Source: a virus
Virus record (IMG/VR): IMGVR_UViG_3300010885_007256
Coordinates: 1 to 40,624 of that record
DNA: 40,624 nucleotides
Reading direction: 5' to 3' (one strand)
Of this stretch, positions 30,943 to 37,807 are shown piece by piece (the stretch's first letter is position 1; each line of letters starts with the position of its first letter). Both the position numbers and the translations under genes were made by a program. The notes below the pieces were generated by a model. The model was not told the DNA's origin and did no database searches. It saw only the letters and a list, made by a program, of their open reading frames with translations.

Positions 30943-31580
30943 TAGTATGGTGCTCCCCCTCCAAGTAGTTCTGATATGTCTCGTATCCCTCGTGCTGATA
31001 TCTGTTCTACTCGCTGAGGTGAGATGTCCCAAGCTGTTGCTATCTCCGTTAATGGCTGGTCGTGAGCGAAGCGACTGTTAAGTATCCCTTGTGTACGTGG
31101 GTCCAGCTTCTTCATAGCTCTGTCAACATCAGCCAGCATAGCCAGCAAGTTGTTACCTTCGCTTGCTTGCTTCTTAGCTTTGATGCCATGTACATCTGGG
31201 TCTAACACTTGGTTGGTTAGATGTGCATCTTCGGAACCAAGAACTTTAATTAAACCTTCAATCATTTCAATACGATAGTAGTACTCATCACCAAGCTCAT
31301 AGCCAAGAGCTCTTGCCTTTTCTTTGCGAGCGTATCGCTCGCCTGCTCTACGCATGAAAGTAGAGAAAGCTTTGTAACCCATTCGTCTTTCGTTCTCTTC
31401 TTCACGCATGAGATACTCTTTGACTTTGTCTTTACGTTTCCAAGCGTACTCATTCATAGCTTGCTTGATGTCTGCCTGCTCGGCAAACCTGTGGTATTTC
31501 TTTGAAATATTATATGAAAGTACAGATGTAATATCGTTTACTTGTTCCCAAATAGAATGGTCGCGGTTCAGCTCAGCCAT
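30942..31580 (-). CDS. Phage RNA polymerase sigma factor-like protein
   Basis: Residues ~150-206 of this 212-residue protein (DVDRAMKKLDPRTQGILNSRFAHDQPLTEIATAWDISPQRVEQISARGIRDISELL) match sigma-70 region 4, which reads -35 elements. The N-terminal half (VLSYNISKKYHRFAEQADIKQAMNEYAWKR) resembles region 2, which helps open the promoter. Such proteins in phages direct host RNA polymerase to late genes. The terminal position in the replication unit would give it a delayed-early timing suited to that. A broad match is clear, but no -10 specificity residues can be read. Confidence 0.85.
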   Translation of the reverse strand: MAELNRDHSIWEQVNDITSVLSYNISKKYHRFAEQADIKQAMNEYAWKRKDKVKEYLMREEENERRMGYKAFSTFMRRAGERYARKEKARALGYELGDEYYYRIEMIEGLIKVLGSEDAHLTNQVLDPDVHGIKAKKQASEGNNLLAMLADVDRAMKKLDPRTQGILNSRFAHDQPLTEIATAWDISPQRVEQISARGIRDISELLGGGAPY

Positions 31581-31860
31581 GTGCCTTCACCAGATATTCA
31601 ATTGACTTAAGCAGTAGAGCAGGGTCATCACCTAATAAACCAAGGGCGCGATTATGGTTACTGCAAAGTAATCCTCGCACCTTGCCACTCTTATGACAAT
31701 GGTCGATGTCGAGCGCTCTGCCTTGGGGAGGTTCACCACAAATGTAGCAAGTCCCACCTTGGTCTTCGAGCATTTGGTCGTACTCTTCCACGCTAATACC
31801 GTAAGACCGTATGCGAGAACCACGTGCTTCTTCGTAGGTTTTATTTCTTTTGCGTGGCAT
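31573..31860 (-). CDS. Recombination endonuclease VII-like (HNH family)
   Basis: This 95-residue protein has Cys38-x2-Cys41 (CYICG), the HNH-type catalytic core DIDHCHKSGKVRGLLC (Asp53, His54, His56) and the following NHNRALGLLGD. These match endonuclease VII, which resolves branched DNA before packaging. The second zinc pair is Cys66 and His69 (LLCSNHN) instead of the usual Cys-x2-Cys. It overlaps the sigma gene by 8 nt and the DUF1599-like gene by 20 nt. Homing endonucleases share the fold, but the core sequence favours the resolvase branch. Confidence 0.9.
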   Translation of the reverse strand: MPRKRNKTYEEARGSRIRSYGISVEEYDQMLEDQGGTCYICGEPPQGRALDIDHCHKSGKVRGLLCSNHNRALGLLGDDPALLLKSIEYLVKAHG

Positions 31861-32169: not shown

Positions 32170-32817
32170 CTAATCGTCTAGTGCATTAATCAATGCTGTT
32201 AATGCTTGAGCTCCTTGGTCAGCAATTATACTATTGATATCAGAATCAGGCGGTAACGACACGCGCATGGCTTGAGGTATTGCATCTACTAATCTGCGAG
32301 CCAAGTCCTGTCCTGGATTAGAACCATCTTCTTTAACATCGTTATCTGTGGCTACAATTACTCTACCTATGCCATCAAAACAACGTGAGAAATAAGGCTT
32401 CCAAGCGTTAACGCCAGCAACAGCGACAGCAGGATGCCCAGCAAGAGTAGCAGATATCGCATCAATCTCTCCTTCAACTATTAATACCTCCCTTACAGCA
32501 TGAATGATTGCGTTGACATTATATAGATGGTGCTTCTGACCAGTAGGTATCATGTACTTAGGGTCACCATCATCAATCCGACGGAACTTGAACCCGACAA
32601 CACCAGCATTAGTAATATACGGAATAGATAAATGCTTTTTAATTCTGTCTTCATGACCAGCAGCAGGTTCTTCCACGTAGCCCAACAGGAATTGTTGGGC
32701 GCCAGCAAGGATGCCACGCTTCTCAAGGTACGCCTCAGCTGGTGAACCAGCCAAAGAATTATGATAGGTGTGTGCTGCCTTTGTCCAGAGTTCAATGAGC
32801 TTAGGATTGGTTCTCAC
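32170..32817 (-). CDS. DnaG-type primase, TOPRIM half
   Basis: This 215-residue protein holds the catalytic TOPRIM domain of a DnaG-like primase: VLIVEGEIDAIS with Glu115/Glu117 and VIVATDNDVKEDG with Asp158/Asp160. Before it lies HTYHNSLAGSPAEAYLEKRGILAGAQQFLLGY, a segment of the DnaG RNA-polymerase fold. The CHC2 zinc finger usually at the N-terminus is absent and encoded separately at 33341-33673. It starts at a GTG that overlaps the previous stop (GTGA) with AGGAGAAGAA upstream. It should make RNA primers for host DNA polymerase together with the helicase. Confidence 0.88.
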   Translation of the reverse strand: MRTNPKLIELWTKAAHTYHNSLAGSPAEAYLEKRGILAGAQQFLLGYVEEPAAGHEDRIKKHLSIPYITNAGVVGFKFRRIDDGDPKYMIPTGQKHHLYNVNAIIHAVREVLIVEGEIDAISATLAGHPAVAVAGVNAWKPYFSRCFDGIGRVIVATDNDVKEDGSNPGQDLARRLVDAIPQAMRVSLPPDSDINSIIADQGAQALTALINALDD

Positions 32818-33344
32818 TTCTTCTCCTGTCTATGTGTAATGAATGGAGGCGCAGTATACACATCATTACGAGCAGCAATCTGCATTGCTTGCTTCCATGT
32901 TGCCCCGCCTGCCAGTGCGCCAAGAGCCCATGATGAGCCAGACCCTATCCCATACAGACCATCGTCACGCAGGTATACAGAATAGTTATCATCTACTTGG
33001 TAGATGGTGCCGTTGATTGCTAATAAAAATTCAAACCCAGCATCCTCGTCATCCTTACTTGGGGTATAGCCAGAATCTTTGATGCACTCTCTCATGCTAG
33101 GTACAACTGTTGTAATCATAAAATGATATTCATCTTTAATGTTAGCTGGGATAGTTGGTGGTTTCCACACGTGCTGCATCACATCGCATGGTTGTACGTC
33201 ACCAGCACCAGCAACCAACCACTTGCCACGTTTAGTTATCTTAGTAACTATCGGATGCGAGAATGGTCTACCGCCTGCGGTAGTACGTGAGTCGGCTGCA
33301 AATATGCAGCCGTTGTCTTGTTGGATACCAATGATAGTTGTCAC
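32814..33344 (-). CDS. Proteasome-beta / HslV-like Ntn hydrolase
   Basis: With GTG at 33344 (GAGGG seven bases upstream, GTGA overlap with the CHC2 gene) this 176-residue protein begins Met-Thr-Thr-Ile-Ile-Gly. Removal of Met would free Thr1 as in HslV and proteasome beta subunits. Mature numbering gives Asp17 (AADSRTTAGG), Lys34, WLVAGAGD (41-48), GSGSSWALGAL (Ser136) and ARNDVYTAPP (Asp160, Thr163). These line up with the proteasome residues Thr1, Asp17, Lys33, Ser129, Asp166 and Ser169. It is a threonine peptidase candidate encoded between the two primase halves. No ATPase partner is encoded in the phage. Confidence 0.8.
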   Translation of the reverse strand: MTTIIGIQQDNGCIFAADSRTTAGGRPFSHPIVTKITKRGKWLVAGAGDVQPCDVMQHVWKPPTIPANIKDEYHFMITTVVPSMRECIKDSGYTPSKDDEDAGFEFLLAINGTIYQVDDNYSVYLRDDGLYGIGSGSSWALGALAGGATWKQAMQIAARNDVYTAPPFITHRQEKK

Positions 33345-33673
33345 AGTGAAGCCCTCAATCTTGGTGGCGTCCAACGCCCACTTGACTTCTTACGTCCACG
33401 AGTTGGAGCAGACTGCTGTGATTCCTTGCCAATGTTTTTCTCTGCCCACTTACGAGCTTCTGGGTATGTTAGCTTCTCACGAGCCATGATTATCTGTATA
33501 CCAGAACCACTTCCGCTACATGCATAACATACCCAGACGCCCTTGTCTGAGTTTACTGAAGCAGACTTACGTGAGTCGTCATGTACAGGACACAAGATTG
33601 ATTTCTCCCCGCCAAGTGGCAAGGTCAATCCGTAATGACTGAAGACTGCTTCTAAAAACTCAGACTGATTCAT
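33341..33673 (-). CDS. DnaG-type primase, CHC2 zinc-finger half
   Basis: Residues 28-52 of this 110-residue protein form the CHC2 zinc finger (Cys28-Pro-x-His31 ... Cys49-x2-Cys52) typical of the N-terminus of DnaG, with SILCPVHDDSRKSASV and GVWVCYACSGSGSGIQ. The C-terminal tail (GRKKSSGRWTPPRLRASL) is basic. The domain senses template sequence in primer synthesis. The catalytic half is encoded 500 bp downstream after a protease-like gene, so the primase works in trans. The stop overlaps the GTG of that gene. Confidence 0.88.
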   Translation of the reverse strand: MNQSEFLEAVFSHYGLTLPLGGEKSILCPVHDDSRKSASVNSDKGVWVCYACSGSGSGIQIIMAREKLTYPEARKWAEKNIGKESQQSAPTRGRKKSSGRWTPPRLRASL

Positions 33674-34092: not shown

Positions 34093-34446
34093 TCACTGAT
34101 GTCCATTGTAACCTGCCTGTTTAAGCAGATTCACCCAGAGTTCCGCAGGCATTACTGCATACGACTCTGAGATATTAGAAGTGCCACGCTTCTTGATTAA
34201 CACAACGCCTGTCTCTGCATCGGCATGTGTCATCTCATTCTCCAGTTCCCGAAGATACTGAGGAATTCTAATTGCTTTCTCATTCTTACATTCTATAACC
34301 ACACCATTGATACCGTCAATATCTCCGACATCATCGTGTCTGCCTGCACCATATGCGCGTTCAGCGCATGGATAGCCCATGGTTACTAACCACTTAACTA
34401 CATCACGTTCGTACTGTGAGCCTTTACGTTTAGCTGCTGATGTCAT
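34093..34446 (-). CDS. Holliday junction resolvase-like PD-(D/E)XK nuclease
   Basis: This 117-residue protein carries RKGSQYERDVVKWLVTMGY (Glu13), AYGAGRHDDVGDIDGINGVVIECKNEK (Asp42, then Glu52-Cys-Lys54), and a helical C-terminal part (YLRELENEMTHADAETGVVL). The E...D...ExK order and spacing fit archaeal/phage Hjc-type and VRR-type nucleases, which cut branched DNA. The start overlaps the WhiB stop by 4 nt (ATGA). Together with endonuclease VII this gives two candidate branched-DNA nucleases. Confidence 0.8.
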   Translation of the reverse strand: MTSAAKRKGSQYERDVVKWLVTMGYPCAERAYGAGRHDDVGDIDGINGVVIECKNEKAIRIPQYLRELENEMTHADAETGVVLIKKRGTSNISESYAVMPAELWVNLLKQAGYNGHQ

Positions 34447-34884: not shown

Positions 34885-35269
34885 TCTTTAATTCTTTCAT
34901 CACATCTAATAGGTTCTCTACCGTAATCAGATAGCCCTTGCTTCTATTCGGTGGTATCTCACAAGTAATCTCTCGACCAAACTTTTTAATTGCATACAAC
35001 ACATGACCAGTTGGAACCATGAGCACACCACGTTCAAGTACGAACGCCCAGTATGCAGCTTTAGTTACCATCACACCTGACGGTTCCCAATTCTGGGAAC
35101 GTCGATACCAGCATTCAACTTCTATATATAGGTTATTGGTTGACCACCATTTGCGGTCACGTTTAACTTCTACTGTGCCACCTTCGGTCAGTAGTTGATT
35201 TACTAGTGACTCGCCTTCTTGACCAAATCTAAAATCTAAATCAAATGACGATAGATTTTCTACTGCCAT
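34877..35269 (-). CDS. PD-(D/E)XK-like nuclease, type unknown
   Basis: This 130-residue protein has FRFGQEGESLVNQLL, TVEVKRDRKWWSTNNLYIEVECW (Glu34-Val-Lys36), a GVMVTKAAYWAFVLERGVLMVPT segment and a Lys-rich end. The glutamate, Glu-x-Lys and strand order fit a small PD-(D/E)XK fold. Similar proteins occur in actinophages next to helicase genes, and could be repair or resolution nucleases. Its start overlaps the helicase gene by 10 nt. No subfamily is assigned. Confidence 0.65.
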   Translation of the reverse strand: MAVENLSSFDLDFRFGQEGESLVNQLLTEGGTVEVKRDRKWWSTNNLYIEVECWYRRSQNWEPSGVMVTKAAYWAFVLERGVLMVPTGHVLYAIKKFGREITCEIPPNRSKGYLITVENLLDVMKELKND

Positions 35270-36093
35270 TGCGATAACGTTCTTGCTCTATGTAAATCAG
35301 ATGGAGAGTTGTAAAGAACCATCTTGCTTGCTTCCGCCGATAAAGTTACATAGCTTTCTGCAGTTGGGTCTGCCTTGCCATGTCTGTTCTTTACAACAGC
35401 AACTCGATAATTAGAGGAAGCACTATCCAGAGCCACCGAAAGGACCAACTCTGGTAGTGCTGCCACCTTACCCATCAATGCTTTACGTGGTGCTGGGTAG
35501 TTCGGCTTAGACATCTTCTCATTCTCGGAAACGTGGTGCAGGACGATGAATGCCGATTCATACTCACGAGCCATGTAGTGAAACGCTGACATGGCATCGC
35601 GTAGTGCAGTCCACTCGTTATCACTTGCGGATGCTACGTTCATTAAGTTGTCTACATATACAGCAGTAGGTGCCGAACCATGCAATTCAATCCACGCTTC
35701 TATCTCCTCTTCAATGTCTTGAAGAGAAGGTGCTGGGTCGAACGCGAATCGTACATGGTCGGCACCTTCCGCTAGCGCATCCTCAAGGAGAACGCTTGCT
35801 TCGGTATCCATCAATCTTTCTACATCAGCAACATCTTTATTCATAAGTATTGCACCAGCGCGAGTAGCGATGGTACGTGAATCAGAGTCAGCTGATATAT
35901 ATAACGACGGAACCTTAGATGTAATTGCGTACCATAATGCAAGTAGTGTCTTACCTCCGCCTGGTTGACCAGCGACCAAATGCAATTGCGCTTGGCGAAA
36001 GACAACTTGACTGGCTGTGAGTTGAGGCAGGATTTCTGGTAGTTGATGACCAACTGGTGACTCGACACCCACTACTTGCAAGAGGCTACGCAC
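35260..36093 (-). CDS. RecA-fold replicative helicase-like ATPase
   Basis: This 277-residue protein starts at a GTG whose first base overlaps the previous stop (TAGTG). It has a Walker A motif AGQPGGGKT (residues 41-49), a Walker B TAVYVDN (143-149), AFIVLHHVSE (about 181-190) and VVKNRHGK. It aligns in layout with the RepA/DnaB-type hexameric helicases, without the N-terminal domain of full DnaB. It probably unwinds phage DNA at the fork together with the phage primase. A recombinase (RecA-like) reading is less likely because the sensor residues look like helicase. Confidence 0.85.
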   Translation of the reverse strand: MRSLLQVVGVESPVGHQLPEILPQLTASQVVFRQAQLHLVAGQPGGGKTLLALWYAITSKVPSLYISADSDSRTIATRAGAILMNKDVADVERLMDTEASVLLEDALAEGADHVRFAFDPAPSLQDIEEEIEAWIELHGSAPTAVYVDNLMNVASASDNEWTALRDAMSAFHYMAREYESAFIVLHHVSENEKMSKPNYPAPRKALMGKVAALPELVLSVALDSASSNYRVAVVKNRHGKADPTAESYVTLSAEASKMVLYNSPSDLHRARTLSQWQ

Positions 36094-36569
36094 TACTTAG
36101 CCCAGATTGTTTCTGCTTCTACGGCACCTGGTGAGAAAGGCTTCGGTCCCTTGGCTGGGTCAAACCAACCAACATAAGCCTTGCCTGCTTTTGATACGCC
36201 CTTCTTCTTGGCGTACTTACCGCGTCCGTCTGGTAGGTCTGGTGCATCTGGATGCCCATATGTCCATTCATTACCGTACCTATCTTTGACAACCTCGATT
36301 GATTGTACTGTTGTTCCTGATGTTACTGGCTGTGGGTTTAGCCCAGCATCCTGCAACATTTGGATTGCTTGTTCAGCATTAGGTGTGTATGCGTTGCCTG
36401 TTGGTATAGGCAGTGGTCGACCAAGACGTGCTTGGAGTTGTACAGCCTCAGCGATTGCTTCGACTGCTGCTTCTAGGTTAGTTCTAAATTCACTAACGCT
36501 ATTACCTCGGACGGTAAATAGGTCAGTTGAATTTAACTTACCTGTATACGAGAACATAGATTCAGTCAT
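36093..36569 (-). CDS. SSB-like or replication-accessory protein
   Basis: This 158-residue protein begins MTESMFSYTGKLNSTDLFTVRGNSVSEFRTNLEAAVEAIAEAV. It has a Pro/Thr-rich middle (IPTGNAYTPNAEQA) and ends in a basic and aromatic part (GRGKYAKKKGVSKAGKAYVGWFDPAKGPKPF). In actinophages similar proteins lie beside the RecB-like nuclease gene and are sometimes suggested to bind ssDNA. Here it lies between the split nuclease and the helicase. No family is firmly recognised. Confidence 0.6.
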   Translation of the reverse strand: MTESMFSYTGKLNSTDLFTVRGNSVSEFRTNLEAAVEAIAEAVQLQARLGRPLPIPTGNAYTPNAEQAIQMLQDAGLNPQPVTSGTTVQSIEVVKDRYGNEWTYGHPDAPDLPDGRGKYAKKKGVSKAGKAYVGWFDPAKGPKPFSPGAVEAETIWAK

Positions 36570-37238
36570 CTACTTTCTCTCCTTTTCTTTCCCTGTTGTT
36601 GGTAGTTGTAGTGGGAAATCTTTTGAGCCCCATGCGGGGCACTTCGCCATGAACGAACACATCTTACAGTTTTCACCAACGAATGTTGGGAAGTAACCTT
36701 GCAATACTGAGTGGTTCATAGATGTAAACGCATGTTCATAGTATTCAATACTGAGGTGGGTTAAGTCAATCAATTCATCAAGCTCGCCTTTGCGAGTCAT
36801 AAAAAATGCGCCCCACTTGGGGCGAATACCAAAAATCTTTTCAACACCACTGGCATACAATCCATTTTGGATTACACCGAACGGTGTCCTGGAACCAGTC
36901 TTATAGTCAACGATAACCAAGTCTTCCCCTACTTGGTATATCGCATCAATAATAAATCGAACAGGTGTACCCCCGAAATGCACATCTGCTGACCATTCGA
37001 TTCCAGGACGACCATCAGGCATGGTAGCGATTTGCCAACCAGATTGCAACATCCATTGATGGTATGCCTCAACCTGCTTTAGCCCATCGCTTTGCCAGAA
37101 GGAGAGGTCCTCACCGTCAGGACGAGCAGCGGTCTTACGACCAGCTACCTTCCATTCTGATGGGGGTAACCCCGACTTCTCCTCGACATCTCTTACTTCG
37201 GCATTGAATATCTCAAGCCATTTCTCAGTTAAACTCAT
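36570..37238 (-). CDS. RecB/Cas4-like nuclease, catalytic C-terminal half
   Basis: This 222-residue protein holds the nuclease motifs of Cas4/RecB-type enzymes: TPVRFIIDAIYQVGEDLVIVDYKTG (Asp98, Asp111, Lys113), VIQNGLYASG (Gln124) and three C-terminal cysteines CKMCSFMAKC (191, 194, 200) for a [4Fe-4S] cluster. What is missing is the N-terminal part with the first cluster Cys and the GxxxH motif; these are encoded separately at 37436-37639. Its ATG follows GAGGAAGAG and overlaps the zinc-ribbon gene stop. It is probably a DNA end-processing nuclease. Confidence 0.88.
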   Translation of the reverse strand: MSLTEKWLEIFNAEVRDVEEKSGLPPSEWKVAGRKTAARPDGEDLSFWQSDGLKQVEAYHQWMLQSGWQIATMPDGRPGIEWSADVHFGGTPVRFIIDAIYQVGEDLVIVDYKTGSRTPFGVIQNGLYASGVEKIFGIRPKWGAFFMTRKGELDELIDLTHLSIEYYEHAFTSMNHSVLQGYFPTFVGENCKMCSFMAKCPAWGSKDFPLQLPTTGKEKERK

Positions 37239-37467
37239 CGTACTCTTCCTCTGGTCGGTCAGGTTTCACATAGTCTGGATGGTCAACTGGTGTGGGGGTT
37301 GTCATAGGTGAACCGCAATCAGCACAGAAAGAATCCGTGAACCACATGACCAAGTCGTAGTCTTGGAAGATAGCCCTGATAACCTGAATGTTTGAACCGC
37401 AGTTCACACATTCATTACTAGGGATACCTCGCTGGTCAATCAAGTTGTTGTTGTTTGTAGAGCTCAT
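37225..37467 (-). CDS. Zinc-ribbon protein between two halves of a nuclease
   Basis: This 80-residue protein (MSSTNNNNLIDQRGI...) has two CxxC pairs, ECVNCGSN (Cys20, 23) and SFCADCGSP (about 48, 51), enough for one zinc, with an acidic tail (YVKPDRPEEEYDEF). It is read in a different frame from both nuclease halves and overlaps both of them, by 32 nt at the 5' side and 14 nt at the 3' side. It replaces what in related phages is one continuous nuclease gene. Its role, possibly bridging the halves or being an invader, is unknown. Confidence 0.75.
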   Translation of the reverse strand: MSSTNNNNLIDQRGIPSNECVNCGSNIQVIRAIFQDYDLVMWFTDSFCADCGSPMTTPTPVDHPDYVKPDRPEEEYDEFN

Positions 37468-37639
37468 GGTTTAACCATTCCAACATAGAGTGGACGGCAG
37501 AGCCAGCAGCAAGATACACTGCAGGCTTCTCTGGGACCATGGCTATCTTGCTCAGATAGTATTTCTGAGGACAGGATTGCCAAGTGGATAACTGACTATA
37601 CGACCGATGAGGAGGAAGTTGATTCATACCGTAAATCAT
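37436..37639 (-). CDS. RecB/Cas4-like nuclease, N-terminal half
   Basis: This 67-residue product carries SYSQLSTWQSCPQKYYLSK (Cys23, the first [4Fe-4S] ligand of Cas4/AddB-type nucleases) and VYLAAGSAVHSMLEWL (the GxxxH motif with His50). It stops right after that helix. The rest of the enzyme is in the separate gene at 36570-37238. An ATG four codons downstream (37627) lies 7 nt from a TATGAT -10-like element, so a leaderless transcript starting at that ATG is possible. It is the first gene of the replication unit. Confidence 0.85.
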   Translation of the reverse strand: MIYGMNQLPPHRSYSQLSTWQSCPQKYYLSKIAMVPEKPAVYLAAGSAVHSMLEWLNHELYKQQQLD

Positions 37640-37744: not shown

Positions 37745-37761
37745 GTGGTAAGAAAAAGAGA

Positions 37762-37795
37762 AATAAAAAAAGAGGGGGACCATTAAGTCCCCCTC
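37762..37795 (-). terminator. Strong intrinsic terminator ending the late unit
   Basis: On the minus strand a 9-bp stem (GAGGGGGAC/GTCCCCCTC) with a 6-base loop is followed by TTTTTTTATTT. It lies 13 nt after the stop of the last late gene (37808-38026) and would halt transcription before the replication unit's promoter region. This is the clearest terminator in the window. Confidence 0.9.
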
Positions 37796-37807
37796 CTCTT
37801 CTATCTC

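Follow-up and report, generated by a model that had tools for sequence, protein, structure and literature searches.

A phage nuclease of the Cas4/AddB type encoded in two pieces, with a 1+3 cysteine site probably divided between two chains

Cas4 (Sso0001) and AddB are described as having a RecB-type active site and metal ligands made up of one N-terminal and three C-terminal cysteines (PMC3466216, accessible part). In the phage locus described here, the elements of this pattern are distributed over two open reading frames with a zinc-ribbon gene between them. This raises the question of whether the two frames still yield a single nuclease, and what the gene in the seam contributes. The stretch analyzed, referred to as the window, is the whole 40,624-base record IMGVR_UViG_3300010885_007256 (positions 1 to 40,624). 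The three open reading frames of the original prediction were found as described; they lie on the minus strand in three different frames and have 67 (N), 80 (Z) and 222 (C) residues:

37760 to 37807, minus strand: strong terminator-like hairpin upstream of N (consensus scan only)
37436 to 37639, minus strand: N-half of the Cas4/AddB-type nuclease, 67 aa, with Cys23, GxxxH (Gly46-His50) and Glu54
37436 to 37467, minus strand: 32-nt overlap of N stop and Z start (from ORF coordinates)
37225 to 37467, minus strand: Z, 80-aa zinc ribbon in the seam between the halves, with C20xxC23 and C48xxC51
37225 to 37238, minus strand: 14-nt overlap of Z stop and C start (from ORF coordinates)
36570 to 37238, minus strand: C-half, 222 aa, with Asp98, Asp111-x-Lys113, Gln124, Tyr128 and Cys191/194/200
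36093 to 36569, minus strand: 158-aa gene abutting C, putatively of the same operon (ORF list)
35260 to 36093, minus strand: DnaB-like helicase gene downstream, in the replication module (PHROG 243, E 2e-73)

The N-half probably starts at 37627 rather than at 37639, which gives 63 residues, since nine relatives (L017-L021 and L023-L026) have no earlier start codon in this frame; the first one is the Met equivalent to residue 5. The hairpin at 37760 to 37807 is a possible boundary from the gene preceding N, and its Rfam match to mir-627 was dismissed (E 0.076; score 23.7 bits, gathering threshold 86). Another terminator-like hairpin, located inside C (36824-36809), was rejected as probably due to chance because relatives break its T run. 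The replication region also holds a RusA-like resolvase gene (34093-34446) and an endonuclease VII gene (31573-31860), both on the minus strand. Other open reading frames scanned in the window include a sigma-70 region 4 protein, a WhiB-like gene and a glycosyltransferase. Cultured Planktophila phages are likewise reported to carry WhiB, sigma-70 and glycosyltransferase genes (PMC10202952, accessible part), and this common gene content makes an actinobacterial freshwater host likely for the window phage.

Profile searches show how the two halves relate to each other. Pfam PDDEXK_1 (PF12705) matches N at profile positions 3-53 (E 2e-7) and C at 89-247 (E 2e-6). In the exonuclease profile PHROG 1870, which has 313 positions, N covers 11-69 and C covers 74-304, so that almost nothing is missing at the cut. 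The active-site motifs GxxxH and D...DxK...Q are both present, as is the pattern of one N-terminal and three C-terminal cysteines, each spread over two chains. A single polypeptide, the usual form of these nucleases and not itself needed for activity, is not what this locus encodes.

A normal gene may also appear in pieces through sequencing or assembly error, and the distribution of the split bears on this directly. The C-half, Z and relatives served as queries for scans of IMG/VR, which gave, together with the window and the Planktophila phage LanE43-AprE7 (E7), 364 loci outside the fused set; all locus counts refer to the best-ranked loci of each scan (best 80 of 150, best 80 of 305 and best 80 of 297). 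Both N and C are present in 347 of these best-ranked loci, and all 347 are split. Sixteen more lack N and come from contigs that end too close upstream of C, and one, L430, was counted apart as fused. Some of the 347 are repeat fetches of one contig; they contain 192 distinct N-to-C DNA sequences. Among the best-ranked loci, 194 (102 distinct) belong to the clade of the window, with Z in the seam of every one, and 153 (90 distinct) to a sister clade. Even the divergent window-clade members L351 and L352 keep the gene order, with C 55-56% and Z 43-46% identical. Most sister-clade loci have N directly overlapping C (141 loci, 86 distinct); in the other 12 (4 distinct), about 300-960 bp lie between the two. 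The 158-aa gene next to C was found in all four window-clade genomes tested and in none of three from the sister clade.

The sister clade includes E7 and a second Planktophila phage, LanE43-AprF5 (F5). Both are split and encode identical proteins, an N of 61 aa and a C of 202 aa, with an overlap of 17 nt. Their sequence records carry the name 'Caudovirales sp. ct2KA10'. The two phages are reported to be isolated and lytic (PMC10202952), and a term count for that paper gave no 'exonuclease'. The split thus appears to occur across a large group of freshwater phages. A frameshift error fusing the frames, which the original prediction had named as its possible undoing, is ruled out, as is chance, by the 347 split loci with their 192 distinct sequences and by the two cultured genomes. 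With strong purifying selection on each frame as well, and nothing found in its favor, sequencing or assembly error is refuted by the data and retains only a negligible probability.

The residues singled out in the original prediction sit where it placed them and are nearly invariant. Of the 102 distinct window-clade sequences, 99 retain Cys23 (1 Ile and 2 gaps in the others) and 99 retain Asp111 (1 Val, 2 gaps); His50 and Asp98 are present in 101 each (1 gap each), Lys113 and Gln124 in 100 each (2 gaps each), and Cys191, Cys194 and Cys200 in 99 each (3 gaps each). The ligand and catalytic columns of the sister clade contain no substitution over 90 rows, gaps aside. D98, D111, K113, Q124, Y128, C191, C194 and C200 do not vary over the 41 rows of an alignment that combines C-halves with fused C-regions. 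Together with the profile matches, this conservation upholds the earlier view of one Cas4/AddB-type nuclease in two parts, one with the N-terminal Cys and GxxxH, the other with the Asp, Asp-x-Lys and Gln motifs and three cysteines.

Median pairwise dN/dS was computed outside the overlaps, on de-duplicated rows, and only for pairs with dS of 0.1-1.5; the rows of the trees discussed below were de-duplicated too. The values are 0.025 for N, 0.086 for Z and 0.111 for C in the window clade, and 0.070 for N and 0.110 for C in the sister clade. Purifying selection on both N and C is strong. The C-half carries D, DxK, Q and three cysteines, and it could be proposed that C acts alone while N is a decaying remnant or has another job. 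Near-invariant residues combined with low dN/dS, however, are not the pattern of a merely decaying chain: in each clade, no other piece has a dN/dS as low as that of N, which also retains its Cys, Gly and His with hardly an exception. In Sso0001, moreover, replacement of any of the four cysteines by Ala is stated, as data not shown, to yield insoluble protein (PMC3466216, accessible part); by analogy, the C-half should need the N-half. A C-half acting alone is therefore considered very improbable.

Predicted structures agree with a nuclease domain composed of both halves. The chain of L430, in which N and C are joined, was predicted with pLDDT 93 and pTM 0.88. In structure comparison its residues 1-249 align to AdnA 781-1039 (Z 16.7) and residues 1-252 to AddB (Z 14.3), with further matches to the Argonaute-associated Cas4-family protein ACE1 (Z 15.0) and to Cas4 (Z 12.9). 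The model of the window C-half alone (pLDDT 86) matches AdnA just over residues 844-1039 (Z 10.6), so the N-half would correspond to the missing part. The N/C junction falls between helices 41-55 and 59-67 of the L430 model. Confidence in the cysteine region is 67-71 for the C-half alone and 85-86 for fused L430, a weak comparison because the two models differ in sequence and alignment. A profile search against solved structures matched AdnA/AdnB, ACE1 and Cas4 chains.

A full-length protein could still be made from split frames by programmed frameshifting, ribosomal bypassing or splicing of an intervening element. In agreement with this, the frame order (+1, +1) and the frame overlaps are constant in all 78 complete window-clade loci of the first scan. 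In the same 78 loci, however, the C frame opens only 134-170 nt past the N stop. The codons before the N stop vary among sister-clade loci, in which inspection revealed no shared slippery site, and some seams carry cargo of about 300-960 bp. No Rfam intron match was found in the window stretch or in L160, L201, L229 and L235. Frameshifting, bypassing and an intron were rejected on frame closure, the variable seam and the absent Rfam match, and any of them is now highly unlikely, even more so than a C-half acting alone. An intein was also rejected, since N and C have lengths that would not accommodate one.

The overlaps instead point to separate but linked translation of the pieces. The N/Z overlap is 32 or 35 nt in 88 of the 102 distinct window-clade sequences and the Z/C overlap 14 nt in 91; the N/C overlap is 8-20 nt in all 86 direct-overlap sister-clade sequences. 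A match resembling a Shine-Dalgarno sequence, of 4 nt or less, precedes the Z start in 101/102 window-clade sequences and the C start in 82/102 of the window clade and 86/86 of the sister clade; most of these are 3-4 nt long. Matches of this length agree with re-use of terminating ribosomes, and the pieces are probably translationally coupled, although with matches of 4 nt or less in most sequences, coupling and independent initiation can be judged by inference only.

In other phages the nuclease is a single gene, as in Mycobacterium phage Dixon, Thermobifida phage P318 and Propionibacterium phage PHL010M04. A profile of the mycobacteriophages Zetzy and Dixon brought in 64 loci, and every one of them has one open frame over the match. 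The comparison of fused and split versions proposed in the original prediction gave fused mycobacteriophage relatives on one side and the 192 distinct split sequences on the other. One open frame is also found in the Herbidospora locus L309 and in contig L355; the virus record L354 starts inside the Herbidospora nuclease and is classed as fused only through L309. A search of genome contigs gave one relative, in Herbidospora cretacea, also fused. The two nuclease frames have the same order as in the fused relative. The cut lies after the GxxxH helix, and C starts where Dixon and Zetzy have an internal Met. In Zetzy (L162, 2483-3298) the annotated exonuclease gene 74 begins at this internal Met and omits the N-terminal part in the same frame. 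This annotation suggested a split nuclease in Zetzy as well, which was rejected since the sequence is one open frame.

L430 represents the opposite event. At 2206-2961 of this locus, N and C are joined as a single frame of 252 residues and the overlap is lost, and in the tree L430 is nested in the split sister clade. This re-fusion shows that the N and C pieces fit end to end; it is known from one metagenome contig of 5,075 bases, and could be an assembly error. In the first nuclease tree a branch separates the fused rows from the others in 72% of bootstraps. The second places the fused Herbidospora/L355 pair next to the sister clade, weakly supported (81/29), and a single split clade was not rejected by the AU test (p 0.37). 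Both trees contain long branches. Alignment A5 was left unused since its Z-only rows misaligned, and A1 was too divergent to serve as a query. On these sequences, the split may have arisen once or twice.

The gene in the seam requires separate consideration. Pfam matches of Z are of the zinc-ribbon type, weak and below cut-off, and there is one weak PHROG match. A search of the phage collection with the window Z gave five records, including E7 and F5, none with an E-value better than 3; the E7 copy, which encodes 59 aa and lies on the opposite strand at a distance of about 5 kb, was recognized in per-genome searches (E 4e-6; E 9e-10). When 20 split genomes were searched with a Z-family profile, every genome gave a single copy. 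For the nine window-clade genomes, the window included, this is the gene in the seam; in all 11 sister-clade genomes it lies elsewhere, and one of these 11 matches has an internal stop codon. Among 37 fused-nuclease records, 35 gave no match to this profile, which was built from the window clade and could miss distant copies; four of the 37 (L248, L272, L302 and L355) are fragments. The remaining two, the close relatives L245 and L246, gave a marginal match of 18 residues (E 0.005).

The original prediction had offered Z as a possible bridge or chaperone between the halves. As a dedicated bridge, chaperone or third subunit, Z is favored by its conservation, by its presence in the seam in 102/102 distinct window-clade sequences, and by its distribution, which is once per split genome in the 20 tested and no match in 35 of 37 fused records. 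The sister clade argues the other way, since Z lies elsewhere there and the two halves either overlap each other or have other genes between them; one of its 11 Z matches contains a stop codon. Z has evidently changed place, into or out of the seam, and on this sequence comparison its position there is not required. The association of Z with the split is consistent, but it is confounded with lineage, as it rests on one or two evolutionary events. A role tied to the seam is thereby weakened, and a dedicated role of any of these kinds is unlikely; a role of Z in trans is compatible with the single copy in every split genome tested.

Other seams hold other genes. Those read in L201 (3045-4014), L229 (3685-4008) and L235 (3661-4002) contain members of a 107-114 aa family and a 218-aa gene, and L361 represents the fourth distinct type of sister-clade locus with N and C apart. 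Four of these cargo proteins gave no confident family match among PHROGs (best E 0.005, to families of unknown function), and no convincing match to a homing endonuclease, with one endonuclease-family match at E 0.064. The 109-aa seam gene of L229 is present in one of 19 genomes tested, its own, and therefore, unlike Z, is not a core gene.

A parallel to the seam is provided by the primase of the same phages, which is also encoded in two parts. In the window, profile matches locate the following genes:

33341 to 33673, minus strand: CHC2 zinc-binding part of the primase
32814 to 33374, minus strand: HslV-family peptidase gene between the primase parts, overlapping both
32170 to 32817, minus strand: Toprim part of the primase

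The two primase parts are near each other in different frames in all eight genomes tested, two phages with a fused nuclease included. The HslV-family gene lies between them in the window and in three other window-clade genomes tested, two of which have a further 200-430 nt before Toprim. In three sister-clade genomes it is distant and the primase parts overlap directly. Two of six matches to the HslV-family peptidase contain a stop. Thus an unrelated gene occupies the primase seam of the window clade just as Z occupies that of the nuclease, and relocated genes in two seams of one clade argue against a special role of the position of Z. A more elaborate proposal, in which the cluster and the active site are assembled across two chains, Z is a trans-acting assembly factor that moved into the seam for stoichiometric co-translation, and the seams of split genes serve to park core genes, is judged unlikely, slightly more so than a dedicated bridge.

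The explanation that very probably applies is that of two subunits, likely to be translationally coupled, that together make up a nuclease of the Cas4/AddB type, its metal site being shared 1+3 by cysteines of both chains. A phage nuclease gene (PDDEXK_1, PHROG 1870) would have been cut in the loop after the GxxxH helix, and N and C would be made from one coding stretch by means of overlapping stop and start sites. They would then associate non-covalently into one nuclease domain, to which N would give the first Cys and the His helix, and C the remaining active site and the other three Cys. Association of the two chains is inferred from their conservation, from dN/dS and from one natural re-fusion. 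The four Cys would hold one metal site, shared 1+3 between the chains; a [4Fe-4S] cluster is its probable identity, and nuclease activity is presumed. The metal could also be zinc instead, which is described for the E. rectale nuclease (PMC3466216, accessible part). The seam would tolerate other genes, the window clade placing there the single zinc-ribbon gene of the phage, which sister phages keep elsewhere. The helicase, primase and resolvase genes nearby suggest an exonuclease of replication or recombination.

Among known systems, the Cas4-family exonuclease of actinobacteriophages (PHROG 1870; Dixon gene 81) is most similar, with the same profile over both halves, the same motifs and, as in the window, a DnaB-like helicase gene a few genes away. 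It is, however, one chain of 267 residues and not two. The nuclease domains of Cas4, AddB and AdnA share the cysteine and active-site pattern (Cas4, AddB) and the fold (as seen through L430), but are single chains, and the helicase fusion of AddB and AdnA is absent from the window nuclease. Inter-chain clusters exist in other proteins. Phage genes in pieces, such as Aeh1 nrdA/mobE, T4 topoisomerase with mobA, and DNA polymerase 43A/43B, likewise encode enzymes split by intervening DNA. The split NrdA of Aeh1 is reported to be fully functional from two chains, the 43A and 43B chains to co-purify, and the content between the pieces of gene 43 to differ among phages (PMC2988022, accessible part). 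In those genes homing endonucleases or untranslated spacers intervene, whereas in the nuclease a zinc ribbon, other small genes or nothing is found, none of the seam genes scanned being a convincing homing endonuclease, and here the putative metal site itself is divided. The two-gene actinophage primase (zinc-binding and Toprim) also has two frames, with a gene in the window-clade seam, but it is cut between domains and the nuclease inside one domain. No description of a split Cas4/RecB-type phage nuclease was found in a literature search of titles and abstract openings, which covered little of the subscription literature; the word 'split' is absent from the main text of PMC5704561.

Annotation may be affected by such loci, since so small an N-half may escape notice and the C-half may be labelled a truncated gene. 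The split nuclease, in which one ligand resides on a chain of its own of 63-67 residues, offers a natural test of how such clusters are inserted and of whether two chains can share a cluster, because each of the four cysteines is reported to be needed for soluble Sso0001 (PMC3466216, accessible part). An evolutionary series is also available, from fused to split, to split with different genes in the seam, and to re-fused. As this group of freshwater phages includes two cultured members, the series is directly testable.
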